A stretch of DNA of 64,000 bases, taken from positions 798,501 through 862,500 of the forward strand of contig JABMCL010000715.1 in assembly GCA_018857735.1 (NCBI GenBank). The letters are read 5' to 3'. This DNA comes from Alviniconcha marisindica (taxonomy: Eukaryota; Mollusca; Gastropoda; Provannidae). The notes under the pieces were generated by a model, which was given only the letters and a program-made list of their open reading frames with translations, ran no database searches and was not told the DNA's origin. This document shows positions 9,336 through 45,600 of this stretch, piece by piece. Positions within the stretch are counted from its first letter, which is position 1; every line of letters begins with the position of its first letter. The translations under genes and the position numbers were made by a program.

Positions 9336-9611
9336 ATGTCTGAGGCAACCAGGACAAACATTTTTTTTCTTCAGATCTGTGGGGTAAACCTTGCACCCTG
9401 GCTGTCTATTTTCAGATCTGTGGGGTAAACCGTGCACCCTGGCTGTCTGTTTTCAGATCTGTGGGGTAAACCTTGCACCCTGGCTGTCTGTTTTCAGATC
9501 TGTGGGGTAAACCTTGCAACCTGGCTGTCTGTTTTCAGACCTGCTGGGTAAATCTTTGACTCTGCTGTCTGTTTTCAGATCTGTGGGATAAACCTTGCTG
9601 TTTATTTTTAG
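9336..9611 (+). repeat. Acceptor-side array before MON2 exon A (about 41 bp, 5-6 copies)
   Basis: The units read GGCTGTCTGTTTTCAG, then ATCTGTGGGGTAAACCTTGC. Every copy has a pyrimidine tract plus TTTTCAG, i.e. a splice-acceptor-like end. The real acceptor TTTATTTTTAG at 9611 follows the last copy. The array therefore presents several candidate 3' splice sites in series upstream of the exon. Confidence 0.85.
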
Positions 9612-9729
9612 ATGCTGAGACTGCCACTGGGCCTGAAGTATGACTGTCCGTCGCCCACCACCTGGCAGCAGGCTGTCTCCGCCTTCAACACCATCATTGC
9701 CTTGGGCCTACCTGTCGCACGGAAGCATG
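9612..9729 (+). CDS. MON2: MON2 exon A
   Basis: 39 codons plus one base, from acceptor TTTTTAG to donor CATG|GTCAGC. It encodes [20 protein letters not shown] and ends GLPVARKH. The ATG at its first base is coincidental, since the homology is internal to MON2. Confidence 0.88.
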
Positions 9730-12700
9730 GTCAGCGTCATCATCTGTTTTGTTCATGTTCAGTTACAGCTGTGTTTTCTACCCTGTTTGTGTGTTGATAG
9801 CTCTTGTTCAGCCATTGTCACCCAGAGAAGCAACAGTGTGATTCTCCTTCACAATTTCCTTGTAGAAAAAAGAATCAGTGGCAGCGGAAAACCATTGTCT
9901 AGAGCTGAAGAATTCCATGGAAATTCCACCAGCCTTTGGGATCTGTCAGGCTGGTTTCCAGCATCTCCACGATGTCTCTTGGGACCTTCCTGAGGGATGC
10001 TGTCCAAATTTAATTTTATATATATATAGTAGTAGTATACATAGTAGTAGTAGTAATCAATTTATTGACTCAGTTATTAAACACAAGTTTGATGTACCTG
10101 TTGTGGCCAGTTCAGGTTGCTTTACCTTGTTACGGTTACAGCAGTTCCAACAACAGGGCTGCTGTGTGATGCTTCTGTGTTTGCATGTTGCAAAGGGACA
10201 GGAAATATGCAAGCATTTTGCATAAGCAACCAGGCAAACCTCCCCTAACATTCTTTGATTTTCAACAGCCATGGGATCTTTTGCAGTTATTTTGTCTTGT
10301 TAATGTCTGAATTATGTTTTGTCTGTTATTTTGTCTTGTTAATGTCTGAATTATGTTCCTTTATTTTGTCTTGTTAATGTATGAATTATGTTGTTTTTGT
10401 TATTTTGTCTTGTTAACATCCAAGTTATGTTCTTTCTGTTACTTTGTCTTGTTAATGTATGAACTGTCTTTTTTGTTGTTAATGTATGAATTATGTAGTT
10501 GTTGTCTTTCTTCCTCAGCATCTGAGTTTGAAGGAATGTGGCATGAGCTTGCTCTGCTGTTCGAGGACTTTCTCTTCACCAAACAGTAAGTTCACTTTTC
10601 CTCTTCACCAGACAGTAAGTTCACTTGTCCTCTTCACCAGACAGTAAGTTCACTTTTCCTCTTCACCAGAGAGTGAGTTCACTTTTCCTCGTCACCAGAG
10701 AGTGAGTTCACTTTTCCTCTTCACCAGACAGTAAGTTCACTTTTCCTCGTCACCAGACAGTAAGTTCACTTTTCCTTGTCACCAGACAGTAAGTTCACTG
10801 TTCCTCTTCACCAGACAGTAAGTTCACTTTTCCTCTTCACCGGACAGTAAGTTCACTTTTCCTCTTCACCAGACAGTAAGTTCACTTTTCCTCGTCACCG
10901 GACAGTAAGTTCACACTTCCTCTTCAGCTGTGTGAAATTTAATTAAATAGAGACCAAGTAATTGTGTCTTGAGTATGTCCTGTAGATATGGTTGATGGAA
11001 TGGTTGGTATGGCTTGATGAGGTTGAAAGTAAACATGGACAGAGTTTGGGTGTGATTACTCTTGTGGTTTTTGTCGGACCGTTTCATTTCCGGGAACTTT
11101 GCTTCTTTTTGTCTGTCTGTTTGATGGCACGTTTTCAAAACACCGGCAGAAACCATGTAAAAATGTTCAGAGCTGCAGGGCTCAGTCTCTGTGTATCACG
11201 CACTTGGACATCAAATTCACCTTTTAGACCTAAATTACAGTGATGTCTGGTTTCCATAAACCACTTTTGCCACCTTATGGATGTCACATTGGTTTGAAAA
11301 ATGTCTAGTGCCACTTTTCAAATTGTGGTAACGTCACAGAAAATGTTTGAACTTAAATTACTGTCCCAATTCACCACCAGGTGCTTTGAGGTCAAATCTT
11401 GCTTTTCTTGACGCTAAATTGGCCAGTGCAGAGATTGTACTTGGGTTTTCAAAACTGCGTATGACGCATGCAGTCATTAAAAGACACACCCAAAAAGCCA
11501 CATATGGGACAATCATTTTTGCACCCTTGTAAGATTTTCAAGGATTGTTCTTAAAACAATTGCTGTCAGTGTGTGTAGCATCATTTTTGATTGAACACAT
11601 TTTCTTCAAGACACTGCAGTTGCTGTATGCAGCTTCACAAGTTCTAACAAGTGTTTGCAACTACTGTACGTGGAAAAGCTTTTCTGAACATGTGGGTTTT
11701 GAGAGTATTTTTTGAAAAAAGAGCGAGTGTCAGAGTTGCAGTTGAAACAAATTGCCATCTATTTTGTTACAAACCTGATCCAACTGCTGTGTAACTGATT
11801 GTGTTGGTGTTGCAGCCCCCCCCCCCCCCCCCCCCCACTCCCCAACCCTGTCGATGGATCCAACTGCTGTGTAACTGATTGTGTTGGTGTTGCAGTCCCC
11901 CCCCACCCCCCCGTCTATGGATCCAACTGCTGTGTAACTGATTGTGTTGGTGTTGCAGCCCCTCTCCGCCAACCCTGTCATTGGAGGACTTTGCCAGAGA
12001 TGAAACCATTGACTGCAAGGTAAGCAACTGCCCTCCTGTCTGCCAGACAGACCCACACAGGTTCTTGGCTTGTCTGCCAGATAGACCCACCCAGGTTTTG
12101 AACTTGTCCACCAGATAGACCCACCCAGGTTTTGAACTTGTCCACCAGATAGACCCACCAAGGTTTGAACTTGCCCACCAGATAGACCCACCCAGGTTTT
12201 GAACTTGTCCACCAGATAGACCCACCCAGGTTTGAACTTGTCCACCAGATAGACCCACACAGGTTTTGAACTTGTCCACCAGATAGACCCACCCAGGTTT
12301 GAACTTGTCCACCAGATAGACCCACCCAGGTTTTGAACTTGTCCACCAGATAGACCCACACAGGTTTTGAACTTGTCCACCAGATAGACCCACACAGGTT
12401 ATTGGCTTGTCTGCCAGATAGACCCACACAGGTTCTCAGCTTAGAACAGATTAGAACTCTTCATGTTTACCAGGTTGACCCACATAGATTCTCAGCTTGT
12501 CTACCAGATAAACCCATACAGGTTCCCAGTGTCCACAGTATTATTTGTGGACACCGGTCATGTCTGTGGTCTCATCTGATTTGTGGACACCGGTCATGTC
12601 TGAGATATCATCTGATTTGTGGACACTGGTCATGTCTGTGGTCTTGTGTTATTTGTGGACACCAGTCATGTCTGTGAACTCATTTGTGGACACCAGTTGT

Positions 12701-15700
12701 GTCTGTGATCTTGTTTTATTTGTGGACACCGGTCATGTCTGCGATCTGGTTTTATTTGTGGACACCGGTCATGTCTGTGATCTGGTCTTATTTGTGGACA
12801 CCGGTCGTGTCTGCGATCTGGTCTTATTTGTGGACACCGGTCATGTCTGCATTCTTGTCTTATTTGTGGACACTAGTCATATCTGTGATTTTGTCTTATT
12901 TGTGGACACCAGTCATGTCTGCGATCTTGTCTTATTTGTGGACACCAGTCATGTCTGTGATTTTGTCTTGTTTGTGGACACCAGTCATGTCTGCAATTTT
13001 GTCTTATTTGTGGACACCAGTCATGTCCGTGATTTTGTCTTATTTGTGGACACCAGTCATGTCCGTGATTTTGTCTTGTTTGTGGACACCAGTCAGGTCT
13101 GTGATTTTGTCTTGTTTGTGGACACCAGTCAGGTCTGTGATTTTGTCTTATATGTGGATGCAGGTCTTCAGAGGGATGTCAAACAGAGTTCTGGGCCAGG
13201 TTTGACTGGTGCACCATTGCCTTGAAAAGCTAAAGCAAACACAAAAGGAACTGGATTTAGCTGTGCAGGGTCAAAGGTCTGGCGTAAATGTGTGGCCAGT
13301 GTGTGGGTTTCGGATGGTGCTCTGCCTGTTCTTTTGCACGTGGTTGTTTGGGTTACAGATGGTGCACCTGATCCGTGATGAAATATTGCCTTATGCGGGC
13401 ACCGTCCCCAAGAGCTTTGTGATGCACATCATGGATCTGCTGAACAGGGGCTCCATCCACTCAGCCATGTCAGACACATTTGTGGGTAAGGAACACTTTT
13501 GTGTCAAACCTGCTTGTGGGTGAGCATTACTCTGATGTGTGTGGGTGAGCACTACTGTGACATGCTTGCAGGCTAAACACATTTGTGGTTAGGATTTAAA
13601 AAAAAAAGTTAGACACTTGTAGTAAGGATCACACTGTGACAGACTGATTTTGTAGGTAATGGCCCACCTCATCAGACACACTGGTGATAGGGAGCATGCC
13701 ATGTCAGATACATTTGTAGGTAATGGTCACATCATGTCAGATATTTGTGGGTAAGGATTACACCATGTCAGGCACAACTGGGTGTAAGGATTACACCATG
13801 TCAGGCACAACTGGGTGATGTGTCAGACACACTTGTGGATACCGTTAACACCATGTCAGACATACTTGTGGGTAAGGGACACGCTTGCGGGCAAGGATCA
13901 CGCCATGTCAGACGTACTTGTGGGTAAGGATCACACCATGTCAGACACACTTGTGGGTAAGGCTCACACCATGTCAGACACACTTGTAGGTAAGGATCAT
14001 ATCCTGTCAGGTTGGTGTGTGGGTAAGAATGACACCATGTCAGTATATATGTATTTGTTGTTGGTGGACAGTTAACTTCAACCTCTGACCAGCCCAGATT
14101 GGCTTTGTTTTGTTGCTGGTTGATGGTGGTGGTGGTGTTTGTTTGTTTGCTTCTTCTTTTGTGGGTGGGTGGGCATGTGGTGCAGCTGGATACTTCTTTT
14201 GGGAGGGGGGGGGGGGGGTGAGTATGGTTATAAGTGAAATGATGAGTATGATTATAAGTGAAATGATGAGTATGGTTATAAGTGAAATGGTGAGTATGGT
14301 TATAAGTGAAATGGTGAGTATGGTTATAAGTGAAATGGTGAGTATAGTTATAAGTGAAATGATGAGTATAGTTATAAGTGAAATGATGAGAATGGTTATA
14401 AGTGAAATGGTGAGTACAGTTATAAGTGAAATGAGTATGGTTATAGGTGAAATATATGAAGTTAATAGTCATCAGATACATGCATAGCATTACATCAGTG
14501 TGCTAATTCAGTTCAGTCTTCTTTTAGTTCCTTAGTTGGTCACTCGCATTTTAAGCTGTTACCGTGGAGGGTAACTCCATGGTAACAGCTTAAAATGTGA
14601 GTGACCAACGACTATTACTAACAAAGCACAGCTTTTGGTACAGGCAGCATTTGGGTCACTTTGTTTCAGACACAGACTCCAGTCGAAAGCTGCGTGAAGA
14701 CTTTGCCAAGACCTGTTTTGAGACTTTGCTCCAGTTCTCCTTTGTGAGCAGGAAGAGTGAGGAAGGGGCAGTCACCAAGGTAGCAGTGCTGTCCCTTCTG
14801 CAGCGCTGTCAGGAGGTGGTGAAAAAATATGTCGATGACGAGAGACTCTCTGGAAAATGTCCACTGCCCAGGTACAGTATAGTCAAGTGAGGTTACTGTA
14901 GAATGTACTTCCAAACAACTGTCCAAATAATACACCTACTCTGTGACCTAAAGTAACAGTGACACACTGAGAGACCCCCTGAGACAAATAGTGATGCATT
15001 CACACTGACAGACCCCCAGTGAGTTACAGTAACAGTGACACATTCACACTGACAGACCCCCAGTGAGTTACAGTGACACATTCACACTGACAGACCCCTG
15101 TGACCGACAGTAACACATTCACACTGACGGTCTTCCTGTGACCGACAGTAACAGGGACACATTCACACTGGCGGACCCCCTGCGACCAACAGTAACAGTG
15201 ACACATTCACACTGACGGACCCCCTGTGACCAACAGTAACAGTGACACATTCACACTGATGGACCCCCTGTGACCAACAGTAACACATTCACACTGACGG
15301 ACTCCCTGTGACCGACAGTAACAGTGACACTTTCACACTGACAGACCCCCTGTGACCGACAGTAACAGTGACACATTCATTCTGACAAACCCCTGTGAGT
15401 TACAGTATCAGTGACACATTCATACTGACGGACCCCCTGTGACCGACAGTAACAGTGACACATTCATACTGACAGACCCCTTGTGACCGACAGTAACAGT
15501 GACACAGTCACACTGACAGACCCCCTGTGACCGACAGTAACAGTGACATATTCACACTGGCAGACCCTGTGACCGACAGTAACAGTGACACATTCACATT
15601 GGCAGACCCCCTGTGACCGACAGTAACAGTGACACATTCATTCTGACAAACCCCTGTGAGTTACAGTATCAGTGACACATTCATACTGACGGACCCCCTG

Positions 15701-18681
15701 TGACCGACAGTAACAGTGACACATTCACACTGACAGACCCCTTGTGACCGACAGTAACAGTGACACATTCACACTGACAGACCCCCTGTGACCGACAGTA
15801 ACAGTGACATATTCACACTGGCAGACCCTGTGACCGACAGTAACAGTGACACATTCACACTGGCAGACCCCCTGTGACCAACAGTAACAGTGACACATTC
15901 ACACTGGCAGACCCCCTGTGACCGACAGTAACAGTGACACATTCATTCTGACAACCCCCCTGTGACCAACAGTAACAGTGACTTGCAGTAACAATGACAA
16001 ACTGATACCGACAGACCCCTTGTAACTTAACAGTGACACATTGACAGACCCCATGTAACTTAAAGTAGCAGTGAGACATTGACAGACTCCCTGTGCATAT
16101 TCTGATGATACTCAGTATACATGAGATGTGTTTCTCAGCTGACCACATGCGGTAAAATAAGCTGTGTGTGCGGTTGCAGACCTCGCCTGGCTGAAATCAC
16201 AGCTGTGTTGAAGGCCATCACCACGCTGCTGCAGTCCCTGAAGAAAGCTCCGTCCAACTGCGGTCAGTGAAGTCACAGAGATTATTATCATGTCCCTAAA
16301 AATAGCTTTGTCATCACTGAAGTCACGTCATTGAAGTCGCATAGATTATTAACACGTCCCTGAAGAAAGATCTATCGTTGGTGAAGTCACCTAGATTATT
16401 AACATGTCCCTGAAGAAAGATCCATCATTGGTGAAGTCACCTAGGTTATTAACATGTACCTGAAGAAAGATCCATCATTGATGAAGTCACCTAGATTATT
16501 AACATGTCCCTGAAGAAAGATCCATCATTGGTGAAGTCACATAGATTAACATGTCCCTGAAGAAAGATCCATCGTTGGTGAAGTCACCTAGATTATTAAC
16601 ATGTCCCTGAAGAAAGCTCCATCATTGGTAAAGTCACATAGATTATTATGTTAATGTCCCTGAAGAAAGCTCCATCCAACTGTGGTCAGTGAAGTCACAT
16701 AGATTAGTAATCTGTCTCTGAAATGGGATACAACTGGCACGATCATTGAGCCAACAGCACACACACAGACAAGACACACACAGACAAGACACACTTTCAG
16801 CCCTTCCCCCCCACAGTTGAGGCCTGTCTGAACTGAGTCACGAACAGAGATCTATAGCAATGGTGAAAACATGCATGGGGGTTATTGTAATTGGGTAACT
16901 CAAGACATGTGCTACCAACAGTGACAAGAGGGTGGAGTAGGATTCGTACCGTTTCCTAAACCACATTGAAGTGTGGAGAAATGTAATCTGAGATGACTGA
17001 AAACATGCAGTCCTTTTGAACAGCTGAATGTAAACATCGCTGATGATAATTGTTGTCTTTTCATTTGTACAAAGGTCAGTACAAGAGTGCGCTCAGTGTT
17101 CAAAATTAAGCTTATTATAGTTAATAATGTTGTCTTCAGTGTTTCTTCAAAATATATTGCCAGATTAGCCTAGAGACTAAGTTCTCAATGTTAAATTTAT
17201 AATACTGGCTGTATAAAGCCCTCCATTTGCTTATAGCCATCACTGTAGAACAAGTACAAAAAAATTACATTGCTTGATTTTCACTATGCCTGACATTACC
17301 ATCCCAGTATGAAAAAGCAGTTGAAACGTTCCAAACCAACACTAAACTCCACTCTGTGAGAAGTCCAAGCTTCATGTTTTTGTTTCAAAACCTCTTGCAC
17401 ATTATTTCCCATCAAATTGTCATCAGAAAGGAGACGTGTCAGACTGAACGTCCTCCACTTCTCCCTGTGCTGCTTCTCTTCACAAGTCTGTAGTTTTGTA
17501 TTTGCTGCCACTTACAGCTTCCAGCGTTGATCATGCCCAACCCACATTTATGTGGGTAGATCATGCTTTTCCTAATTTTCATCATTTTGATGTCATTTTA
17601 AATCTGCATTGTTTTACTTCATCTTCTTATCTCTGTACTTCCTTCTTATTATTTTCTATCTCTCTTCTACACCAGATGAAGACAATGTGTCAAAAACGCT
17701 TTGCATTTTTAATTGTTCTTTATGTGTTGTCATATAAGCGAGAACATTTCTCTATAGCTGTTCTATTAGTGCCATTGTTTGATACGGCAAATAAGACAAA
17801 TAATGTATTGTAGGCTGAGCTTTCAGACTTGCCAGCACAGCCAAGCTTCCTAACTGTTGGAGCAGTGGGCAGAGCTTTCTCACTCTTGGCAGCATGTTCA
17901 TTGCATCTTATTGGTACTGATAACTCACTGGGTGCATATTCTTTCAGACTTCCCTGGCTGCATGGGCTGTTCTTCACCAATACCAGATTGCACATCATTA
18001 AAGACACCAGTTCTGCATTGATATCACACTGCACAACACAAGACACCAGTTCTGCATTGATATCACACTGCACAACACGAGACACCAGTTCTGCATTGAT
18101 ATCACACTGCACAACACGAGACACCAGTTCTGCATTGATATCACACTGCACAACACGAGACACCAGTTTTGCATCGATATCACACTGCACAACACGAGAC
18201 ACCAGTTCTCCATTGATAGCACACTGCACAACATGAGACGCCAGTTCTCCATTGATAGCACACTGCACAACACTAAAGATACCAGTTCTCCATTGATATC
18301 ACACTGCACAACACGAGACACCAGTTCTCCATTGATATCATACTGCACAACACGAGACACCAGTTCTCCATTGATATTGCTTAATGCAACACTGACACAC
18401 GGCATACACTTGCAGGACAGCCCATATGGCTGCTGTAGTAAGGCAGCCTGAACTTCTTTAAATCAGTGTATTTGAAGCTAGTGATCGTGAGAAAGTCAGG
18501 TTGAAGTTTGTTGTTTTCAGTGGAGGCGGCAGTGTGGCAGCAGGTGATTCAGCTCTACCCGGCGCTGGTCGAGTGCACCACCTCCTCCTCCCCCCACCTC
18601 ACCCGCGCCCTCAAAGACGCCCTGCACGAGTACCGTGACCTCCTGACCCCACCCTCCGCTCACGTGCAAAATGGCCGGTGA
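9612..18681 (+). CDS. MON2: MON2 homologue, C-terminal 272 codons in seven exons (partial at 5')
   Basis: Coding segments: 9612-9729, 10519-10585, 11959-12019, 13359-13485, 14670-14871, 16180-16262, 18521-18681. They total 819 nt, and every splice phase fits (0,1,2,0,1,2,1). The joined protein matches the C-terminal region of MON2 in order: [80 protein letters not shown]2 is a large peripheral scaffold related to the BIG/GBF Arf exchange factors but without their Sec7 domain. It works with Dopey and a P4-ATPase on Golgi and endosome membranes in retrograde sorting. The normal protein is about 1700 aa, so most of the gene lies upstream; exon A starts in phase 0. Introns are full of minisatellites, several built from the junctions themselves. 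The gene converges with TATDN2. Confidence is high for identity and good for the exon borders. Confidence 0.92.
10519..10585 (+). CDS. MON2: MON2 exon B
   Basis: Acceptor CTTCCTCAG, donor AAACA|GTAAGT, phases 1 to 2. It encodes [21 protein letters not shown] tandem array of its own 3' junction starts immediately at the donor. Confidence 0.92.
10570..10915 (+). repeat. Donor-side array of MON2 exon B (29 bp, 12 copies)
   Basis: Unit CTCTTCACCAGACA|GTAAGTTCACTTTTC: the first half copies the exon end CTCTTCACCAAACA, the second the start of the intron. Twelve consecutive copies each carry a consensus donor (GTAAGT, or GTGAGT in two). The first donor, at 10586, gives the phase-correct exon. The next would be 29 nt away, shifting frame after an immediate TAA. 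Confidence 0.95.
10925..11110 (+). repeat. Dispersed repeat (homologous copy inverted at 59.15-59.34 kb)
   Basis: It shares long words with the reverse complement of 59155-59335: ATAGAGACC, GTATGTCCTGT, TTGATGGAATG and TTTTTGTC, in order and with similar spacing. The copy at 59 kb is attached to a LINE/SINE-like tail, so this is probably a retroelement fragment inside the MON2 intron. Confidence 0.65.
11111..11775. other. MON2 intron, no feature recognised
   Basis: AT-rich intronic sequence without recognised repeats or exons. Confidence 0.4.
11776..11958 (+). repeat. Acceptor-side array before MON2 exon C (three copies, about 60-85 bp)
   Basis: ATCCAACTGCTGTGTAACTG then ATTGTGTTGGTGTTGCAG occurs three times. 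Each copy ends in the same GTTGCAG acceptor followed by a C-rich stretch. The last acceptor, at 11958, joins the exon in the correct phase. The first copy has a long poly-C tract at 11817-11837. Confidence 0.9.
11959..12019 (+). CDS. MON2: MON2 exon C
   Basis: One base plus 20 codons, [20 protein letters not shown], ending AAG|GTAAGC in phase 0. It aligns with the SIPPDNLSIQEFQRNENID region of vertebrate MON2. Confidence 0.88.
12035..12440. repeat. 34-bp minisatellite downstream of MON2 exon C
   Basis: About 12 units of CCAGATAGACCCACCCAGGT plus TTTGAACTTGTCCA. It starts some 16 bp after the exon C donor and does not include exon sequence, unlike the junction arrays. The units are open on the - strand, giving spurious frames of 149-221 codons. 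Confidence 0.93.
12535..13160. repeat. 36-bp minisatellite upstream of MON2 exon D
   Basis: About 17 units of TTATTTGTGGACACCGGTCA plus TGTCTGTGATCTTGTC. The length is a multiple of three and free of stops, so a 226-codon open frame encoding a 12-residue repeat ([12 protein letters not shown]) results. It is treated as a repeat and not a gene. Confidence 0.95.
13359..13485 (+). CDS. MON2: MON2 exon D
   Basis: 42 codons plus one base, [14 protein letters not shown] through [14 protein letters not shown], ending GTGG|GTAAGG. It matches the ISNEILPYA / LNKGSIHS block of MON2. Confidence 0.93.
13486..14050 (+). repeat. Donor-side array of MON2 exon D (33-bp type unit, about 11 copies)
   Basis: Type unit CCATGTCAGACACACTTGTG|GGTAAGGATCACA repeats the exon end (GCCATGTCAGACACATTTGTG|GGTAAGG). 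The first copies after the exon are diverged; the best lie at 13890-14010. At 33 bp the unit keeps frame and has no stop, encoding [11 protein letters not shown] repeatedly. Confidence 0.92.
14203..14455. repeat. 24-bp minisatellite, about 10 copies, after a poly-G tract
   Basis: Units of GAGTATGGTTATAAGTGAAA plus TGGT or TGAT, preceded by poly-G at 14203-14219. Intronic in MON2. Confidence 0.93.
14535..14609. repeat. 75-bp near-perfect hairpin
   Basis: The arms GTTGGTCACTCGCATTTTAA...GCTGTTACC (14535-14563) and 14581-14609 are reverse complements with a single mismatch over 29 bp. The 17-bp centre GTGGAGGGTAACTCCAT is itself nearly self-complementary. The stem is therefore about 35 bp with a loop of about 5 nt, 60 bp upstream of MON2 exon E. 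It could be a foldback MITE or a small-RNA-type hairpin. Confidence 0.93.
14670..14871 (+). CDS. MON2: MON2 exon E
   Basis: Two bases, 66 codons, two bases: [20 protein letters not shown] through [11 protein letters not shown], ending CCCAG|GTACAG. This is the strongest MON2 match in the window ([22 protein letters not shown]). Confidence 0.95.
14945..15990. repeat. About 45-bp minisatellite
   Basis: More than 20 units of CCCTGTGACCGACAGTAACA then GTGACACATTCACACTGACAGACC with many variants. There is a higher-order duplication: the block around 15365-15560 closely resembles 15620-15820. No exon sequence is included. Confidence 0.95.
16180..16262 (+). CDS. MON2: MON2 exon F
   Basis: One base, 27 codons, one base: [20 protein letters not shown] then KKAPSNC, acceptor GGTTGCAG, donor TGCG|GTCAGT. 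It aligns with the TEIIFVLKAVSTLIDSLKK part of MON2. Confidence 0.93.
16225..16712 (+). repeat. Donor-side array of MON2 exon F (50 bp, about 9 copies)
   Basis: The unit contains TGTCCCTGAAGAAAGATCCA, TCATTGGTGAAGTCAC and TAGATTATTAACA. The first half copies the exon end AGTCCCTGAAGAAAGCTCCG, the rest the intron start. The distal copy (16657-16712, with CTCCATCCAACTGTGGTCAG) is closest to the exon; the middle copies are homogenised to a shorter variant. Confidence 0.93.
16740..17985. other. MON2 intron, no exon recognised
   Basis: Mostly unique AT-rich intron sequence. Short CACACAGACAAGACA repeats lie near 16770. Confidence 0.4.
17990..18395. repeat. 39-bp minisatellite, about 10 copies
   Basis: Units of ACACCAGTTCTGCATTGATA plus TCACACTGCACAACACGAG. 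The length is divisible by three and open in several frames on both strands, which explains long spurious frames. Confidence 0.95.
18521..18681 (+). CDS. MON2: MON2 terminal exon G with stop
   Basis: It begins after TTGTTTTCAG and encodes [20 protein letters not shown] through [13 protein letters not shown], with TGA at 18679-18681. Human MON2 likewise ends in a PPASRVQNG-type tail. No clear AATAAA was found close downstream, so the 3' UTR end is unknown. Confidence 0.93.
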
Positions 18682-20860: not shown

Positions 20861-20915
20861 AACACAGCCCCCCCCCCCCCCCCCCCCAAATGGACATTTT
20901 CTTTAGTGCCAACCT

Positions 20916-21482
20916 GGGCCCATATGCATGATGAGCAAATCAAGTTAAAGGAGGATAGCCCCTAATCCTAATTGGAAGTCCACAAGTTGGGCTTTCCTTC
21001 ATTCCACATGAAACGGCCACAGAAATAGTGAGTGGCTTGTGATCATTTTTAGATTGGGAAAGACCCTCATTTCACAAACGGTGCAAACTCAAATGGACTG
21101 CACACTGTATGACAACAGTTCACACCCCACCCAATTTTTCAGGCAGATGTAAGTGACCTAGAGGCCCCTGCCTATTCAAGATATTCTCGTCTCCTCTGTT
21201 GATTATGGTGTGTAGTCCAAACTTTCTTGAATTTGTGGTCTTCAGTGTTACGCAAAATGGCATCAGTCTGTACAGGTGTCATTTGGCGGCTCTGATGCTG
21301 CCACAACTACCTTTAAAAAAAAAAAGGCTACTTAATGTCCAAAAATTCAGGTCTATAACCTGAATATGAGTAGGCAACCCCGATAGCCCTATTTGCACTT
21401 CATGCATGCCTATTTTGTGTCATCAGTTTAGATGTGATAAATGCAATTAGGGGGGCTATTTGCTCATCATGCATATGGGCCC
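20916..21482. mobile_element. 567-bp MITE-like element with perfect 25-bp TIRs
   Basis: The left end (20916-20940) begins GGGCCCATATGCATGATGAG. The right end (21458-21482) is its exact reverse complement over 25 bp. Inner similarity continues imperfectly (AGCCCC..TAATT). There is no open frame of note, so it is a non-autonomous DNA transposon. A poly-C run lies just outside at 20868-20887. No clear target-site duplication was seen, so the superfamily is unassigned. Confidence 0.88.
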
Positions 21483-22790: not shown

Positions 22791-22794
22791 GACC

Positions 22795-23795
22795 TTGTGG
22801 AGAAACACACTCCATCAAATGACAGGTAAATCACTCCATCAACCGACAGATCAGGTAAAACACATTTCATCAACTGACAGATCAGGTGAAACACACTCCT
22901 TCAACTGACAGGTGAAACACACTCCATCAACTGAACAGGTAAATCACCCCATCAACTGACAGATCAGGTGAAACACACTCCATCAACTAACAGGTAAATC
23001 ACCCCATCAACTGACAGATCAGGTGAAACACACTCCATCAACTAACAGGTAAATCATCCCATCAACTGACAGATCAGGTGAAACACACTCCATCAACTAA
23101 TGGGTAAATCACCCCATCAACTGACAGATCAGGTGAAACACACTCCATCAACTAACAGGTAAATCACCCCATCAACTGACAGATCAGGTGAAACACACTC
23201 CTTCAACTGACAGGTATATCACCCCATCAACTGACAGATCAGGTAAATCACTCCATCAACTGACAGATCAGGTGAAACACACTCCATCAACTGACAGGTA
23301 TATCACACCATCAACAGACAGATCAGGTGAAACATACTCCATCAACTGACAGATCAGGTGAAACACACTCCATCAAATGACAGGTGAAACACACTCCATC
23401 AACTGACAGGTGAAACACACTCCATCAACTGACAGGTAATCACCCCATCAACTGACAGATCAGGTGAAATACACTCCATAAACTGACAGGTATATCACCC
23501 CATCAACTGACAGATCAAGTGAAACACTCCATCAACTGACAGGTTTATCATTCCATCAATTGACAGATCAGGTGAAACACACTCCATCAACTAACAGGTA
23601 AATCACTCCATCAACTGACAGATCAGGTGAAACATACTCCATCAATTGAGAGATGAAACACACTCCATCAGATGACAGATAAGACACACTCTCCATCAAT
23701 TGACAGATCAGGTGAAACACACTCTTTCAACTGACAGGTGAAACAGGCATCATCAACTAACGGATAAAACACACTCCATCAACTAACAGGTGAAA
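22795..23795. repeat. Composite minisatellite, CATCAACTGACAGRTSAGGT family
   Basis: Alternating units CATCAACTGACAGATCAGGT, GAAACACACTC and CATCAACTAACAGGTAAATC, ACCC. The higher-order period is about 54 bp over roughly 1 kb. Confidence 0.95.
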
Positions 23796-24650: not shown

Positions 24651-24689
24651 TTTTATGTCCTGTCAGCCAGGATGGCTAATCGGGGCAAA

Positions 24690-25190: not shown

Positions 25191-25199
25191 CAGTCAACT

Positions 25200-30260: not shown

Positions 30261-30499
30261 AAGTGGTCAATGCTGGAAACAAAGCAAACCAAAAAAATCC
30301 CATTGGGAGTCCAATCACCCTGCTTGCACAGCATCAAGTACATTGCAGGATGAGCAGGTCAGATGTACATGCGGTGTCCGATGTTGTACATGTCGTGGAT
30401 GTTGCATCCAATCACCCAGTTTGCACAGCTTCCACCAGACTGCAGGAAAAGCAGGTCAGATGCAGTGCAGGTCTGTTGTGTCAGATGCAGTACATGGTG

Positions 30500-30634
30500 T
30501 CAGATGTTGTACATGTGGTGCGTATTGCGTCGGACCTGAGACAAAACCTCTTCCACATCCATGCAGCGGAGTTCAGCCACCTTGATGGCCACCATCAACG
30601 CCAGGCCAGGGTGAGACAGCGAGATCCCTTCACT
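30500..30634 (-). CDS. TATDN2: TATDN2 exon 9 (terminal)
   Basis: After GTGTTTCAG it encodes SEGISLSHPGLALMVAIKVA, ELRCMDVEEVLSQVRRNTHH and MYNI, with TGA at 30502-30500. It matches the HPGLALHTVREIA ... RENTSRLY end of TATDN2. Confidence 0.93.
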   Translation of the reverse strand, partial: SEGISLSHPGLALMVAIKVAELRCMDVEEVLSQVRRNTHHMYNI

Positions 30635-33600
30635 CTGAAACACACCAAGCCAGGGTGAGACAGCGAGATCCCTTCACCCTGAAACACACCAAGCCAGGGT
30701 GAGACAGTGAGATCCCTTCACCCTGAAACACACCAAGCCAGGGTGAGACAGCGAGATCCCTTCACCCTGAAACACACCAAGCCAGGGTGAGACAGTGAGA
30801 TCCCTTCACCCTGAAACACACCAAGCCAGGGTGAGACAGCGAGATCCCTTCACCCTGAAACACACCAAGCCAGGGTGAGACAGCGAGATCCCTTCACCCT
30901 GAAACACACCAAGCCAGGGTGAGACAGCGAGATCCCCCCCACTCTGAAACACACCAAGCCACACCATCATGTCACTCACATCAAATCCACTCCATGTTAC
31001 ACACTGTCATGTCACTCACATCAAAGTCACAAGGCAGGAAGTAGGGGGCATCCCTCTCCATGTTACCCACTGTCATGTCACTCACATCAAAGCAACAAGA
31101 TCGGAAGTAGGGGGCATCCATCTCCATGTTACTCACCATCATGTCACACACCACCATGTCACTCACATCAAAGCCACATGGCAAGAAGTAGGGGGCATCC
31201 CTCTCCATGTTACCCACTGTCATGTCACGCAGTCATGTCATGCACCACCATGTCACTCACATCAAAGCCACAAGGCAAGAAGGGGCATCCCTCTCCATGT
31301 TACCCACTGTCATGTCACGCAGTCATGTCATGCACCACCATGTCACTCACATCAAAGCCACAAGGCAAGAAGGGGCATCCCCCTCCATGTTACCCACTGT
31401 CATGTCACGCAGTCATGTCATGCACCACCATGTCACTCACATCAAAGCCACAAGGCAAGAAGGGGCATCCCCCTCCATGTTACCCACTGTCATGTCACCC
31501 CGTCATGTCATGCACCACCATGTCACTCACATCAAAGCCACAAGGCACGAAGTAGGGGGCGTCTGTCTCCATGTTACCCACTGTCATGTCACTCACATCA
31601 AAGCCACAAGGCAGGAAGTAGGGGGCGTCTGTCTCCATGTTACCCACTGTCATGTCACTCACATCAAAGCCACAAGGCAGGAAGTAGGGAGCGTCTGTCT
31701 CCAGGAGGAGTTTGTCCAGAGGCAGGAGACGTGCCACCTCGTGTGTGTCCACTGCCGACCTGTAGGTCACCAGCGGGGTCAGGCCAATAAAGAGGTTCTC
31801 AAAGCGTGATGTCCACTTGAGGGCAGAGTCATAGTTGGACGTAAAGCAGTGGCAGTGGATCTTGTAGTCCACAGGCACATGCTGTCAGACAGTTCAACAA
31901 GGCACAATCTTAGGGGTTTTCTCTCTCGGCGTCACAAAACAATAGAACCATGTAAATGTCTTAGCTGTGTTTTCTCTCACCATCTCACAGAACAATCACA
32001 CAATGCTAGGTTATAGTTGAGGTTTGTTTCTTAGAACAATTAGTAGTGTTTTCTCTGTGTGTTACCAAGTTGAGTTGGTCTGTCTCATGCCACAGAACAA
32101 ACAAACAATGCAATGTCTTAGTTGAGTTTTCCCTCTCAATGTCCCTGAACAATCAAACAATGTCTATACACATACTTACATGACTTAGTGCCAAAAGGTG
32201 CGCAAATTGGGGGTCCAATTTGTGACAGTCAATAAAATCTGTTTCAAACACTTTGTCCTGTTGTTGCTTTGTGTGTGCATTCATAACTGGTCAGTATCAC
32301 AGTGGAAACAATATGAGCTCCAAATCTGGAGCAGCTGGAGAAATATTTTTTGAAAGTGAAAAGCGCCACAAAATTCGACCTCTGAAAACGGACATGCTCA
32401 CAGTGAGTGCTTTCGATGCTTCCATTCACGTACATGACGAATCAAAACATTACCTCAGTCACCAATTTGCACAGAGGAGATATCGCTTTACACAGTGCAT
32501 ATAAAATCGATTATCACTAAGTTTTGTTTTGGAGTTAGAGGCTCCGAAATATCCCTCGGTCGAACGTTATGTGTGTTGAAATGTTTCATGACCAGCATCC
32601 GCAGACAATCTAGTGAAGAACGGACTTTCTCTTTCGTCGAAACTTCACTCCAGTCACTGAGGTACATCACTGCATCAGGCGCCAATGTTTTATTTTACTG
32701 CCAAATGTCTGGGTAGGTTTTAAAATATATTTTGCCATTCTTCATAAAATTGTTGCAATAAATAACGTTCAACAATGTATTAAACAAGCAAAAGGGAAAA
32801 AATAAAGTTTTCGCGCTTTTGCACTACTTCCAGTTAGCCATGTTACACATCTGGGTCATTTGCGTTTAGCAAAAGGCTGCATGGAAGAGACGTTCTGACA
32901 TGCGAAAGGTGTGTGGTAATATTTTTGAAGACCGTAACGTTCAACTTAATTTAAACGTTCATCAGAGATTTAGTCAAATCTTCCGGTTATACGATGATAT
33001 TTATATTGGTATATGCCAAATCTTTTAAAAGTATCAGAATGTTAGCATACAGAATGAGTTTTTGTTGCTGTCGATCTAAAGTTTGTTCAGATGCTTTCTA
33101 AAAAAAAAAATCACCAAGTTTCTTACAACATCCGCATGTTGAAATCGTAATGTGCAACAGCAGATTGGTTATAAACAGTATTTTCTGATCATACTCTTTA
33201 CATTTTTTGCTTGCATTTAACGCAGTTCGTTTTGTTTACAAACTACGTCTTCAAACAAATCATCATATGTGGTAGACAATTCAAATTTACGCAGGTTAAA
33301 GTCGTCAAGTTAGATGTTGAACATTACGATTACAACACGAGCTGTGGAAATAATAACGTTCGACATAATTATAGTGACCATGCCCGTCTGCCTTCCAGAG
33401 TTCTAAAAATGTAAGGTGCCGATCTTAATAGCATTATTCTTTGGCAGTGATTTTTTTAGTAATATTTATTACGATTTTTATTATTATTAATTCTTTCACT
33501 TTTAAGTTAACTGTTCAACTATTTTTGTCCTAGGCACCCGAGTCAACATGACCACGAAACACATGGATGACAAGTTGCGCGTGTGTTTTCCTGTGACACC

Positions 33601-36600
33601 CAAAAGCAGCAAAAGTTGCACTCACTCTTACTTGCTCCATTTTCTCTTACAAAAACACTTACTTGTTTGTTAAATAATAAGTATTATTTATTTTGTTATG
33701 AAAAACAAAGTACCATGTCGTCTATTTAACATTATGCTATCCACTACAACAAAATTAATGCAGCAAAAACTGTTCACATGGAAATAGTTATGTGTCTTTA
33801 TACTTTACAGTAATAAAATGTTACTGACTTATCATTTTCATCAAGAAACAACAGCATTGTACATCTTGTTGAAATAGTAATGTACGACATATTTCTTACA
33901 TCATTTGCTGTTTATGTCAAGAAAGCTTAAATTTGAGAGAAAAAAAATCATCAAATCTTCCTTGTCACATATTGTTCTATTAAAGAATAACTGTTTATGT
34001 TTCAAAATGTGTTGCTTTTATTCATTTAAAAATGTTCAAGATTGGCTTATGTTGAACGTTATGTATTGCAACAAACTATGCGTAGCATGCTGTTCTGTGT
34101 GACACAGAACAACAACGGTTTACTTGGTAATACTCATGTGGATCACATCTTGTAAGATCAGTTGGGTTTTCACAGTTAACTGCATGATTAGCAGCACAGT
34201 GATGTGGGCTTGTTGTAATGTGTAATGTTCAACACCTTGTCACAAATCACACTGAAAGTCAAATTTCTCAGGAACGAAGAGCAGCACTGCCTTCACCCTT
34301 CACTGGTGGATGACTTCACATGTGTTCATTCAAAAAATGCATTACTCACTCATATCCTGTCAACTTTATTTTCTAGTACCTGTCCTCTTTTCTTGCACAC
34401 CTTTTGGCACTAAGTCACAAACACACAATGTACAATTATATACAGATTTCTATATGATCATATACTGGTGGTTTGCCGTCTAAAAATACCTTACGTACAT
34501 CAGCGTTCTGGATAGGAACACTTTGCTATGGCAATGGAGACAATGAAGAAAAGGGAGGCTTCACCATGAAAATGGAGAATGTGAAGAAAAGGAGGCTTCA
34601 CCATGAAAATGGAGAATGTTAAGAAAAGGGAGGCTTCACAATGAAAATGGAGAATGTGAAGAAAAGGAGAGGCTTCACCATGAAAATGGAGACTATGAAG
34701 TAAAGGAGAGGCTTCACCATGAAAAGAGTAGGAAGTGGTGGCTTCACCATGAAAATGAATTACAAAGTGGAGGCTTCACTGTGAAAATGAAGGGTATGAA
34801 GTGGAGGCTTCACCATGAAAAGGGAAAGTATGAAGTGGAGGCTTTACCATGAAAATGAAAGTATGAAGTGGACGCTTCTCCATGAAAATGAAATACAAAG
34901 TGGAGGCTTCACCATGAAAATGAAGAACATGAAGTGGAGGAGCGGTTTCACCACAAAAATGAAGAGTATGAAGTGGAGGCTTCTCCGTGAAAATGATTAG
35001 TATGAAGTGGAGACTTCTCCATAAAAATGGAAAGTATGAAGAGAGGCTTCACCATAAATATGAAGATAGGTAAGTGATTTTATATATTACCAAAGTGCAA
35101 CAACACTAACACAACATATACAATAATGGAATACAACACACTGATGTGACTATGGTGTGAATAAGAGCTGTGCAGTAAAGTGACATACAATATATATGGA
35201 CAAGAAAAAAGAAGAAAATGATCACTGATTTAAAAAAAAAAAAAATCCCTCACCCAAGACTGTTATATCACAGCAAAACACATTTTCCCAGAACACAACA
35301 CATATTAAAAATATCTATGTTACAACTAGCACAGTGTCAATAAAAAACACAAAAGAAAAAAAAATCATTTGATTAAAAAATGTATAAAAAAGAGAGATAA
35401 TTTTCCTCTTTTTTCTTCTCCTCCTCTTTCAGTCATGAAATAGAGAGTGTGAAGCAAAGGTTGACAAACAACACAACTGTAGACTGCACCTCTTCCAGTA
35501 TCTGCAGACAGTCATCCTCAGCCTCCCTGCAGTGAATAACAAGTGGCAGCTGCATCTCCAGGGCCATCTTGATCTGTCTGATGAACACCTCTTTCTGCTG
35601 GGCTGCATACTGACCATGGCTACACACACAACAGAGTTACTGACCATGGCTACAAACACACACAACAGAGTTACTGACCATGGCTACAAACACACACAAC
35701 AGAGTTACTGACCATGGCTACAAACACACACAACAGAGTTACGGACCATGGCTACAAACACACACAACAGAGGGGTTGACCATGGCTACAAACACAGTTA
35801 TTTACTGATCATGGCTACAAACACACACAACAGAGGGGTTGACCATGGCTACAAACACAGTTATTTACTGATCATGGCTACAAACACACACAACAGAGGG
35901 GTTGACCATGGCTACAAACACAGTTATTTACTGATCATGGCTACAAACACACACAACAGAGGGGTTGATCATGGCTACAAACACACACACAATAGAGGGG
36001 TTGACCATGGCTACAAACACACAACAGAGGGGTTGACCATGGCTACAAACACACAACAGAGGGATTGACCATGGCTACAAACACACAACAGATTTATTTA
36101 TTAACCATGGCTACAAACACACACAACAGAGTTATTTACTGACCATGGCTACAAACACACACAACTGAGGGGTTGACCATGGCTACAAACACATACAACA
36201 GAGTTATTTATTGACCATGGCTACAAACACACACAACAGAGGGGTTGACCATGGCTACAAACACATACAACAGAGTAATTTATTGACCATGGCTACAAAC
36301 ACACACAACAGTTATTTACTGACCATGGCTACAAACACACACAACAGAGTTACTGACCATGGCTACAAACAACACAGAGGGATTTCACCAAGAGAGGGCA
36401 ATTCCAAGCAGCCATACCATCCAAGCAGCAGCTGCATCTCAAAACCATTATCAGAATATGGATGACCATCAAAAGAAAGCATGTTTTTGTGTGGCTGTAT
36501 CAGTGTATTCTGTATGTGTATGTCAGTGTATTCTGACCGAAGTATGCACAAAGCAGCAGATTTCCTCTGAGCACCTGAAACCATCACTTCTACTTTTTGG

Positions 36601-39600
36601 CAAACAAAGTGCATAAACAAACTGGTCATGCAGTACCAACCAGTGTGTTAGGGGCCACAAAACAAGTTGTGCAAGTTCTAAAAATCCTACACACTGTCTC
36701 ATCTTGGGCAATCTATCTAGAGAATGCCCATCACATCATGCATTCTTCATGCCAGTTAAGCAAAGGGGAATTATCACAGGCCTACACACAGCCCTGACAA
36801 ACAAAGGATAACAGATCCTAGGGAGGGACTGACACAACTTAGACAAAGGGAAGATTAACAGATCCCAGGGAGGGATTAACACAACCCAGACAAAGGAAGG
36901 ATTAACAGATCCCAGGGAGGGATTAACACAACCCAAAGGAAGGATTAACAGATCCTAGGGAGGGATTAACACAACCCAGACAAAGGAAGGATTAACAGAT
37001 CCCAGGGAGGGATTAACGCAACCCAGACAAAGGAAGGATTAACGGATCCCAGGGCGGGATTAACACAACCCAGACAAAGGAAGGATTAACAGATCCTAGG
37101 GAGGGATTAACACAACCCAGACAAAGGAAGGATTAACAGATCCTAGGGAGGGATTAACACAGCCCAGACAAAGGAAAGATTAACAGACGCTACAGGGGAA
37201 CTGTCACAGGCTTTATTTAACACACAGGATGACAGTACTTATTTAACACAAAAGATGAAAGTATTTATTTAACACCAGATGCAAGTACTTACTTAACAAA
37301 CAAAATAGAAGTACTTTTATCTAAAACAAAAGTACTTATTTAACACACAGGATAAACAGAAATACTGACTGTCTGGAGTAGTCCAGGCCGATTTCCCCCA
37401 GTGCCACAGTCTTCTTGTGCTTGAGCGCCTGCCGCAGACCCATCTCTGCCCACTCAGTGTAGTCCAGGGCACTCTTGGGATGACAGCCCATTGCCATCCA
37501 CACCCGGGGCTCGCTCACAATTGGTTTCCACTTAGCTGTTGGTGCAAATGGTTACCAGTTACAAACAATAATATGCCTTGTCACTTTGTGCCGCGAAAGG
37601 CTTCCCCATCCCCGCTGAGTAAGTAACCCTTTTTTTTAACACCATAGGTGCTATTTTTTAGCACCACAGCAGCGACTGCACAACACAAGACCAGGTGTCA
37701 ACTGGCGACACTAACTGTAAGAGAGATCATTAATATTTTGTTAATTGTTGTATGAGTGGACAAGCTCAGACTGGCGTGAGCATGTCTTTGTGTGTGTGTG
37801 TGGATGTGTGTTGTTTGATAGATATTAATGGCAATTAAAGCTACAATAATTAAGGTTTTGTTTGCTGAAATGTATGTTAATGTGTTTTTTGTGATAAGGT
37901 GTTTGTACAACGCAGTGAGTTTAACTCTGGCTAAAGAATAGTGCATATATAAGATTTATTATTATTATTATTATTAAGAAATGACCAGGCTCTGATCATC
38001 GAGTGGCATAAGCTGAATAACCTTAAGTGTTAGATTTTTTATATTTGCTTTGTTTGACTTTGTAGTGTAACCCACTCCTCCACCTCCCATCAAGTTCTCT
38101 GCAAAGTGCTCAGGGCCTTTTAAGAATTTGCACTGTAGAAATGATCATTATTATTATCTCCCTTCATCCATAAAGGCTTTGTACACGCTCCAAATTCCAA
38201 AACACGGGTCTGCAAGGACCGCATCACTTGTGGGCCCCACTTCCGTAGACTGACCCCCCAAAATACACTACAGATATATATATATCAGTATAAATACTAT
38301 AAGAACATAGGAACACCAAAATAAGTTGAGCTCACATTCATTGGTAAAGCTTTGGGGGTTGCAGAACACTGCCACACAGCCCTCAAAGTTTGCTGGGAAG
38401 GTGTTCTTGTTCTTTTCCCGATAGGAGGCAAAGCTGCCCCTGCACAAATGTCAAAGCACACATCAATAAACCAGAAGCAGGCAGGAGTCTTTTTCTGGGC
38501 CATAACAAATGAGGAGGGTGGGTTCCAAATTCACTCAACTGCACCAAAAAGCACCGTTTTATATAACCTCTTATGTACTGGGTTTTATATGAGCACACAC
38601 CAATCAGCAATGACCAAGACAAGCATGCTGAAAATGTCAAATTCCACCTACGAGTAGGGCTGCCTGTTGAAGAGGAAGTCCAGGTGACAGTGGGTGTCGA
38701 CGAAGAGGCTGCTGTAGGGTCTGAAGAAGGCCTCCTTGGCCTCTTTGCCCCACCTCCTGGAGCCCAACACTCGACTGTCCTTCAGCAGACGAGATGTGTA
38801 GGATGACATCTTTTGCCCACAGCTGCTCACAGAAAGGGACGTGTCCAGCGCCAGAAATGGTTTCTTGCGGAAGAATGTCTTACAAGTGCCATCCTCTTTC
38901 ACCATGCGGAAAGAGGGTGGCTGGTGAGGGGCAGCGTTTCTGGCAGGCAGTTTCGTGTAGGACCCCAGGGCAAAGTGCGGAGCGAGGGATGGGGAGGCGG
39001 TGCCAGGGAGAGCGGGATAGTGGTCATCATACAGCACCCCGTCTGAAGGTGCCGGCTTGCTCCACCACCCTCTTTCTGAGGAGGTCGGGGGGGACTCTGG
39101 GGAAGCATTCAACACACCTGCCCCACAGGCCACCTTCTGGGCTGCGGCACTTTCCCCGCAGTCTGAAGACGCGACAGGAGCAACCTGCGCTGCTGGAGGG
39201 CACAACCGCACGTGCGGTCCTCGACCCCTGCTTGGAATCCGCCGCTTTTCCAGATAGCGAGACAATCCCGGCCCCAAACCCGATCGACGATTGGGGATGA
39301 CGTACTTGTTGGCAGAGGACATGGCTCCTTGCGCATCACTGGTGCGCTTGGCCGTGGGCTCCTGGGAAGAGGTGATGCTGCTGCTGTCTGCATCCTCAGA
39401 GCCAGAGTCTTTGTACATCTGGAGGTAGCGCTGTTTTTGAGCTGGGGAAAAATGCAGAGGTTTGCTTCATCTGAAATGAGGTTTGTCGCCTTGCACAGCA
39501 AAATACCCCCCTGTTGTATGCCAAGATGCTGCAAGTCACTGTTGTTATCAGCAAATAATTATATGCCCACTTTGCTAGTACGAGGTCCAGTTATTAGTTG

Positions 39601-42600: not shown

Positions 42601-45600
42601 TAGTACGTAACTTGGTGTATCACACCCAGTCAACCATTAAGGTTATATCAGGGCAATAAATACCCACTATAGTCACTAAAAGTGCTGTGCTTATGATACT
42701 GTCAGACAGTGTCATTGAAAATATGATAATACCCGACAAGGACAGAGATGATTACAGGCATGTATGTCTGAATACAAACACCAAAACAGTTACTGCTTCA
42801 TGCTCTAAGTTCTAACTGTCCAAGGCGGGTCACACACCACAAATACATACCAAGCAAAAAAACTGACTTGGTGAGTTACAGCTTCATGTTCCAGGACGGG
42901 TCACACAGTAATACAAACCCAGCAGGGCAACAGGTCGGCGACAGTTACAGCTTCATGTTCCAGGGTGAATCACACAGAAACCCAGCAGGACAACAGGTTG
43001 GTGACAGTTATAGCTTTAATTATGTCACATGGTGGGTCATAAAGCAGTAATACAAACCCAGCAGGGCAACAGGTCGGCGCCAGTTACAGCTTCATGTTCC
43101 AGGGTGAATCACACAGAAACCCAGCAGGACAACAGGTTGGTGACAGTTATAGCTTTAATTATGTCACATGGTGGGTCATAAAGCAGTAATACAAACCCAG
43201 CAGGACAACAGGTTGGTGACAGTTACAGCTCAAGTTCCAGGGTGGGTAACAAAAAGTTGGTGACAGTTGCACAACAGCTTCATGCTCCAGGGTGGGGCAC
43301 ACAAAAAACAACAGTTACAAACCCTGCTGGAGTGGGTGGTGTCAGGTGAGAGGACTGGGTGGTATCATGGAAAAATCTGCTGGGGTCCAGATAATGAGGC
43401 ATCTCTTTCCACTCAGAGTACGGCCACTGTCTAAGGTTAGAGTAACCATCTCCACATGCTCCATCCTTAACTTCTTCATTGCCACCTGTGACACACATGA
43501 TCATCATACTTTCAATTTTACAAATGTAAGAGTCTAAGACACAGATTTTATCCTAACATTTGCCTGGAATATTATGTCATATCTGAAGTATAAAACAGAA
43601 CGTATGCAAACATACACACACAAACCACTGGTCTTCTGACTAACAGATTTGCAGTTTATCAGTCTTGGTCAAAGTCTATTTACTGGTCATGATCTGAGGC
43701 CAAAATTTAATAAAATACCATTTTATGAGGGAAACATGAGGTTGTGCGAAGTGTGAACATCCATGGGTCATCAACACAATCATTTTGTTGTGGCCATTCT
43801 TATTGGGAACCCCAAGTGAAGAAGCACCACTGGTCCTGTCTATGGGAAAGGAAGCAAAAATACCACTCTCTCACTAGTCTCTGTCTCATAGCATTTTGTC
43901 ATTTAATTTATAGTCTGCAAAACATCAGTGTTTGAAAGTCATGGACACATGGCCATCAGCACTGCCACGTTGACCAATTCTGTGATGTCATGATTGTATC
44001 TGGCATGCATGGCACTGGCAGCTGTGTACATGTACCATGAGCCAACCCTTTGCTATTTATACAAAAGTGCCAGAGAGTGGAGCCAGTGTTGGAAATAGGG
44101 CCATTTCACATTTGCAGGTTTCTGTTGATATCTAGACACACACAAAAAACATTTCTGAATTTCAATTTTGAGTTTCTCACACACATAAAATTGCCACTAC
44201 ACAAAAGACTGGGAAATACCCCCCACACACAAAAAAGAAGTTGGAAAGAAAAATGGCACTTACTATTTGAGGAGGTGACAGTGGCAGATCTCGGTCTGCA
44301 TGAAGGGTAGATGGGCAGCGGACAGAAGGGGTTGGGATCCAGTGGAGCGGGCACAAGAGGGCAGGGAAGCTGAGGACGAGGGGGCCAACAGTAGTCTGCC
44401 ATACAACTGGGCTGATTCAATCCAAAGGGAAATCTGCTGGGGTGAGGGAGTCGAGCACCAAAGTGCCACAATGGGTGCATGGCATGAAGTGAACTTTCAG
44501 GAGGCTGAACAATCGGCCTGTAGTCCTCATCAGCAAGGGTTGTGGGTGAAGCATGACTATCTGGTTGCAGAGAAGAGGTTTTCGCATCATCTTTGGTTTC
44601 TAGCAAGTCAGATCCTTGGATTGTCTTCTCCTCGTGTACTGGACTGCCAGAAGCTGCTTGGCTTTCATTCTTCATCCGGACAATGAGTTCAAAAGAAACA
44701 TCAGGTATGCTGCTCGCTTCCACTGTCTGTTTGCGGACATAGTCCAGCGGGTGCCGAGCAGAGTTCACTGTCTGAATGGAGTGACAAGGGATGTGGATGG
44801 CTTCACTGTCATCAGCTCCATCCATGCTGCCATTGCCACTCGCGTCTCGATGTGAAGTAGCGCTGTTGTCAGAATAAATGGGGCTCCTTTCACGAGGCGT
44901 GGGGTTCAGGTCTTGCTGAGTGGGGTTTTCCATGGCGGAAGGGGGTCGAGATGCAGGTCTAGATGAGGGCCTGTTCTGCTGCAGCTGCTGAAAAGCAGTG
45001 CTGCAACAGCCGTCCTGGCATTCGTGTTCATCATTGCAGCCCATGCCCTGCTCTTGCCCCTGAAAACCATAACCATAGCAAGCCATGGAGTACGCCAGCC
45101 AGGCATTGTACCAGCGCTCATAATACGGGTCATGGGGCTGCATCCAGCAATCCCCAGAATCTGAAGGGTGTGGAGAATAGTAAGACCGGTTGCTAGACTC
45201 AGCAGTATATGGTGGATACCAGGAAAGGTTCTGATATGCTCCACTGTACACCTTATGCCAATACTCACTGAACTCACAACTGCGCAAGTAATGCAGATAC
45301 GGCTGCCTCTCTTGCATCACTTCTGTCCGACAGTTTCCCTGCACCTGAGCGGCCAAGTCATCACAGTCACTCTGTGACAGAAGATCACTGCCACAGTCAC
45401 TTGAGCTGCTCGTTTGCACTCTGGGGTATAAATCAGAGTCACTGAGAGAGTGGAGTCGTTCCCTAGCAACACAACCACGAGAACAATCAACACCATGATC
45501 ACATGCTGCATCCCTGTGGGACTGTGAGCAACCTGCAGCAGGTTGTGATTTGCTGCCTGTGCCAGTATGTGGCATCTTGCGGATGTCCTTCAAGTCAGCC

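Follow-up and report, generated by a model that had tools for sequence, protein, structure and literature searches.

Tandem copies of splice junctions in introns of a gastropod genome and their likeness to the mirages of amphioxus

Several introns in a 64,000-base stretch of the Alviniconcha marisindica genome (hereafter the window) contain minisatellites whose units look like copies of the adjoining exon-intron boundary. The locus raises the question of whether these units really derive from the genes' own splice junctions, whether arrays of this kind recur in other genes or in other animals, and whether junctions are places where minisatellites preferentially arise.

Junction arrays in MON2 and TATDN2

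The window contains the 3' end of MON2 on the + strand, whose joined exons match the Pfam family Mon2_C (PF16206) with an E-value of 7.4e-98. Upstream of exon A (window 1-9700), no MON2 exon was recognised by reading frames of at least 45 amino acids. On the - strand, three TatD_DNase exon matches (C768:830175-836015, window 31675-37515) mark a TatD-domain gene, for which the name TATDN2 is kept from the original prediction. The reading frame and GT/AG served to place 30 splice junctions, 13 in MON2 and 17 in TATDN2. Each was represented by a 48-base query (24 exon and 24 intron bases) and aligned against 1.1 kb on its intron side, and an alignment was accepted only with at least six aligned bases on either side of the boundary. 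In the whole window, TRF finds 47 merged arrays with a period of at least 10, covering 15,034 bases, and Rfam at gathering scores gives no match.

Alignment scores of at least 45 were obtained for seven of the 30 junctions, at least 26 for nine, and at least 22 for ten. The seven clear cases (four donors and three acceptors) are the MON2 B, D, and F donors and C acceptor, and the TATDN2 T7 donor and T6 and T8 acceptors, presumed to be the exon 8 donor and the exon 7 and 9 acceptors of the original prediction (Table 1). When the window junctions were aligned with the introns of the other gene (442 pairs), the maximum score was 24. The similarity of the arrays to their own junctions is far beyond chance, which bears out the proposal that they are tandem copies of the adjoining boundary. 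At all seven clear junctions the copies found are confined to the intron side, as had also been proposed. This direction is expected because it is the only arrangement that leaves the protein unchanged, and the outermost copy is still joined to the exon because any tandem duplication leaves one there.

Most of the junctions originally listed are among the clear seven. The A acceptor, also listed, is weak: the copy at 9324 has exon bases and the array units have few. The donor of T1 (the exon 2 of the original list) reaches a score that 1.4% of the cross-gene pairs also reach, which places it within the null tail, and the junction origin of the array near it is not established. A weak two-copy repeat at the D acceptor (score 27) had not been listed. 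The estimate that about half of the junctions carry arrays was too high, the count being seven clear cases and at most ten of 30.

ETDAPYFLPCGFD, which belongs to the exon itself, is encoded by the units of the T7 donor array, and no stop interrupts the reading frame on the way to donors 2 and 3, which are both in frame. Therefore, the repeats derive from the exon and not the reverse, and the exon-like part of the units, on which the original idea depended, is truly exonic. At the C acceptor the copies differ in a run of C, and TRF misses the array. The E donor is not repeated, and the array at 14990-15982 in the following intron is therefore not derived from a junction.

Table 1. Exons, junction arrays, and related features. 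Positions of MON2 and TATDN2 features are those of the window; positions of haemocyanin features are those of the locus named.
Feature	Position	Strand	Description
MON2 exon A	9612..9729	+	within Mon2_C match; splice sites by frame and GT/AG
A acceptor region	9324..9611	+	41-bp array 9370-9598 (TRF), acceptor copy at 9324; score 26
MON2 exon B	10519..10585	+	frame, splice sites
B donor array	10572..10926	+	12 copies x 29 bp, each 14 exon + 15 intron bases
C acceptor array	11765..11958 (start approximate)	+	real site and 2 copies 63 and 143 bp upstream
MON2 exon C	11959..12019	+	frame, splice sites
MON2 exon D	13359..13485	+	splice sites; acceptor has one partial upstream copy
D donor array	13472..14043	+	degenerate, unit about 33 bp, 12 aligned copies including real site
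MON2 exon E	14670..14871	+	donor not repeated
MON2 exon F	16180..16262	+	splice sites
F donor array	16241..16698	+	unit about 50 bp, 8 aligned copies including real site (TRF, alignment)
MON2 last exon G	18521..18681	+	frame, splice sites
TATDN2 last exon T8	30492..30634	-	frame, splice sites
T8 acceptor array	30601..30961	-	8 copies x 44 bp (TRF, alignment)
Intron T7-T8	30635..31662, 1,028 bp	-	98% T8 acceptor and T7 donor arrays
T7 donor array	30985..31703	-	66/90-bp units, 11 aligned copies including real site
TATDN2 exon T7	31663..31881	-	frame, splice sites
TATDN2 exon T6	35490..35619	-	frame, splice sites
T6 acceptor array	35608..36376	-	23 aligned copies including real site
Array near T1 donor	42874..43244	-	TRF; score 22
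Haemocyanin L034 donor	6676		42 aligned copies
Haemocyanin L035 donor	8206		34 aligned copies
Haemocyanin L035 donor	5954		18 copies
Haemocyanin L035 donor, Cu-A exon	4157		3 copies
Haemocyanin L035 acceptor	1257		6 copies

Some other features of the two genes were noted. The MON2 D-E intron contains a near-perfect palindrome (14535-14609) that, by eye, resembles a small inverted-repeat transposon. An insertion-like stretch of ~2.2 kb, also recognised by eye, lies inside a TATDN2 intron (32181-34417), and its ends read as mutual inverted copies (tgacttagtgccaaaaggtg and caccttttggcactaagtca). A single TATDN2 exon of ~2,200 codons (44264-50890, - strand, in the ORF 44109-50909) has no Pfam match. 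TatD-like reading frames also occur at four other loci in the genome (L023, L024, L025, and L030), where no credible splice junction was found. Two of them (L023 and L025) have internal stops, and L025 and L030 overlap on one contig (C1479). These frames may be copies carried by a repeat family.

Recurrence in haemocyanin and kinase genes

Junctions outside the window were taken from the assembly (817.6 Mb in 2,806 contigs), with splice sites chosen as the best by splice-site weights among at most three candidates per exon end. Arrays were found at seven of 49 such junctions, or six of 48 without the Cu-A donor described below. With MON2, TATDN2, haemocyanin, and kinases, junction arrays occur in at least four gene families.

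The genome has 28 matches to Haemocyan_bet_s (PF14830), the best with an E-value of 7.7e-35, and 14 prokaryote control genomes have none. A 336-residue stretch matches molluscan haemocyanins, with 14 distinct PDB haemocyanin sequences at E <1e-60. Its best unit gives 518 bits against 8trz, 419 against 3j32, 409 against KLH1 (4bed), and 363-364 against 6r83 and 4yd9; we take the last two to be squid haemocyanins, and 3j32 and KLH1 to be gastropod. The haemocyanin matches identify the host as a mollusc and reject amphioxus as the source, and the order of these scores favours a gastropod. Two haemocyanin stretches (L034 and L035), which were selected as gene loci irrespective of arrays, have five clear junction arrays among 14 junctions (Table 1). 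One of the five belongs to the Cu-A exon, which was read by eye from a haemocyanin motif and noticed through its array. None of three junctions at two further haemocyanin loci (L031 and L032) has an array, giving a total of 5/17, or 4/16 without the Cu-A donor. The L034 exon at 9203, the L034 acceptor at 3506, and the L035 Cu-A acceptor were left out of the counts as not placeable. The L035 acceptor 5576 (score 41, a CTCC simple repeat), the L041 acceptor (24), and the weak L011 donor 5522 (30) were scored as negative.

The two largest haemocyanin arrays, L034 6676 and L035 8206, are located at the same junction in two paralogs. The exons of these paralogs are 80% identical over 515 nt, and the first 30 intron bases align at 14/33 positions. 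Since these intron bases can hardly be aligned, growth of the arrays looks independent, which suggests that they grew separately, by repeated growth at one site.

Kinase exons were sampled by rule: 144 matches were gone through in list order, those without a stop and with an open frame of at most 135 amino acids were accepted, one apparent twin was skipped, and 14 were taken in all. Two of the 26 junctions of this sample are clear: the L039 donor, with five copies, and the L046 donor, with one duplication. At L011, a locus with predicted gene-like exons, none of five junctions is clear and one is weak (30), and the single L029 acceptor is negative, so that these two loci together give 0/6. Exon finding by codon usage in 22 stretches picked by contig number gave few usable exons. 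Minisatellites make up 14.5% of the 150 kb readable in these stretches.

Three further arrays were observed near splice sites or donor words. A 24-bp-unit array (L011 5787-6279) ends exactly at an acceptor AG (6279), and a 50-bp-unit array (L044 1-393) stops about 16 bases short of an acceptor; both are without exon bases. It may be that arrays gather at the ends of introns whether or not their units include the junction. About 14 kb past the end of the window (G000:C768:876856-877090), the perfect donor word AGGTAAGT is repeated in tandem, mostly every 27 bases.

Likeness to mirages and probable origin of the arrays

The original prediction knew of no named class of this kind, but such repeats have already been named in amphioxus. 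In the available passages of two papers (PMC3087553, PMC3902484), "mirages" are described as minisatellite-like tandem duplications of intron-exon boundaries, at donors and acceptors, in the genes Adh3, the globins BflGb6 and BflGb9, PGBD5, and troponin C. AG/GT is reported to be kept in many but not all copies, and normal splicing to be undisturbed (PMC3087553, PMC3902484). Length is described as unstable between alleles and in the soma (PMC3087553). The molluscan arrays share the sequence characteristics: the repeat unit spans the boundary (7/30 junctions in the window, 5/17 in haemocyanin, and 2/26 in kinases, one of these a two-copy repeat), both donors and acceptors are affected (four and three in the window), AG/GT is kept in many but not all copies, and several unrelated genes are hit, as in amphioxus. 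They differ in host, a mollusc and not a cephalochordate, which we do not treat as defining, and in size, with up to 42 aligned copies compared to the six and three repeat units quoted for the BflGb6 haplotypes (PMC3087553, PMC3902484). Judged by these sequence features, the molluscan junction arrays are of the same kind as the amphioxus mirages, in another phylum. What is new here is the occurrence in a mollusc, the kind itself being already known from amphioxus. Among the titles, abstract starts, and passages searched in the open-licence PMC literature, there is no report of boundary repeats in a mollusc. A 27-bp minisatellite array in intron 3 of an abalone TSSK1-like gene is likewise a gastropod intronic minisatellite of similar unit length but, in the available parts of its description, unlike the arrays reported here, it is not said to span a junction (PMC6905558).

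We consider it probable that the arrays are minisatellites of the mirage kind, born by slippage across the boundaries and tolerated since the outermost site would still splice. Slippage or unequal exchange would create a short tandem copy straddling an exon-intron boundary. The first donor or last acceptor would stay on the exon and, if it is the site used, the mRNA would be normal. The duplication would then be invisible to selection, and the array could grow on the intron side like any minisatellite in a repeat-rich genome. The original proposal that such duplications are neutral if the outer site is used is accepted here as the probable reason why the arrays are tolerated.

The retention of splice dinucleotides has a bearing on whether the copies themselves could be functional, with selection maintaining them as redundant or regulated splice sites. 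GT is intact in 12/12 copies of the B donor array, and AG in 8/8 and 23/23 copies of the T8 and T6 acceptor arrays, respectively. In the large haemocyanin arrays, GT is kept in 41/42 (L034 6676) and 33/34 (L035 8206) copies. In five window arrays, 0/104 dinucleotide cells depart from the column consensus compared to 141/1862 other cells, a comparison made on subsets of the aligned copies (5/12 in D, without the two lacking GT, 19/23 in T6, 9/11 in T7, 7/8 in T8, and 12/12 in B). This result could reflect selection on the copies, as could the in-frame donors 2 and 3 of T7, but selection is not concluded because copy subsets were used. The dinucleotides are also no more invariant than many of the other columns. 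Moreover, AG is kept in only 2/6 copies at L035 1257, GT is lost from two of the 12 aligned D copies (kept in ten, the real site counted), and GC is present in 3/16 readable copies at L035 5954. In the F donor array, the dinucleotide is readable in 3/8 copies. In B, D, and F, the reading frame hits a stop ahead of the second donor. The pattern is read as youth and neutral decay and not as selection for every copy, and we regard functional copies as very unlikely.

Another explanation is that the arrays are relics of intron birth, in which a coding sequence holding a proto-splice site was duplicated in tandem. Such an origin has been proposed for amphioxus globins (PMC3087553), and recent intron gain has been argued for gastropod haemocyanins (PMC7931591), as far as the available parts of these papers go. 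The T7-T8 intron, which consists almost wholly of junction repeats with 23 bases between its two arrays, would fit this origin. However, the other junction arrays sit at one end of introns that also comprise hundreds of bases of different sequence, and intron birth is an unlikely account of the arrays. Intron gain by tandem genomic duplication, for example in a potato RdRp gene (PMC4974935), resembles the present case in having duplication as the proposed source of intron sequence. In potato a new intron was made, whereas in the mollusc pre-existing introns were apparently lengthened.

Tandem repeats are often misassembled, and one globin mirage is reported to be aberrant in the draft amphioxus genome (PMC3087553, in the part available). 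An assembly artefact is nevertheless extremely improbable here, given that the copies vary in both sequence and unit length and that several genes have them.

A possible preference for junctions and its implications

Tolerance after slippage would explain why the arrays persist, but neutrality alone leaves unexplained an excess of arrays at junctions that appears at the level of founders. Whether there is an excess over intron coverage, as the original prediction implied, depends on the null used. Per position there is none: 23% of the window junctions (7/30) score at least 45, compared to 29% of 500 random gene-body positions. A count per founder was judged to be fairer as a null, since a large array weighs too heavily when positions are counted. 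Here each array was collapsed to one unit, with 66 arrays in 150 kb giving the density. In the window, 0.44 junctions are expected (0.75 with the window's own density) compared to seven observed; a second estimate gives 0.7-2.7 expected depending on unit length (P 4e-6 to 0.013). For haemocyanin, 0.25-0.43 are expected compared to 5/17 (P 3.6e-6 to 4.7e-5). For kinases, the expectation is 0.38-0.65 compared to 2/26 (P 0.055-0.14), and kinases with L011 and L029 give 2/32 (P 0.08-0.19). All junctions outside the window give 0.72-1.23 expected compared to 7/49 (P 7e-6 to 2e-4), and 6/48 without the Cu-A donor (P 7e-5 to 0.0012). Arrays also touch intron ends more often than random placement within introns predicts, in 7/20 cases compared to 0.67 expected, two of the 20 (C acceptor and D) having been entered by hand.

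These founder-level excesses, the contact with intron ends, and the further array that ends exactly at the L011 acceptor would be accounted for if junctions were hot spots of minisatellite birth, with founder duplications several times commoner there than elsewhere in introns. The process would be tied to exon edges, for example transcription, pausing, or nucleosome boundaries. On the other hand, junctions are not enriched per position, and the kinase exons, picked by rule, are not significant alone. A genome-wide scan for the doubled donor word AGGTAAGT with a period of 27 gave 20 matches in five places (four with at least two) and no excess; the reversed word gave 59 matches in 13 places (seven with at least two), both counts being without normalisation for word frequency. 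In addition, the window was chosen by an earlier reader for this very pattern, and haemocyanin, the main driver of the excess outside the window, may be a special case. For these reasons the hot-spot reading, and with it the biased mechanism allowed for in the original prediction, is held as a plausible rival that is somewhat less likely than not. A wider version, in which junctions are hot spots of minisatellite birth across bilaterians, and amphioxus and the mollusc convergently lengthen introns by duplicating their own boundaries, is somewhat unlikely. If true, junctions would have redundant splice sites by the tens, and new introns would have a source of raw material.

An oddity known from a handful of amphioxus genes recurs in several gene families of another phylum, so that a view of boundary minisatellites as a peculiarity of cephalochordates is now hard to maintain. 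If junctions do prove to be hot spots, this would point to a connection, as yet unexplained, between the architecture of genes and the birth of minisatellites. The junction arrays offer one concrete way, open to counting, for introns to become longer and perhaps to originate, and they are natural tests of how the spliceosome settles on one of 10 to 40 near-identical sites.
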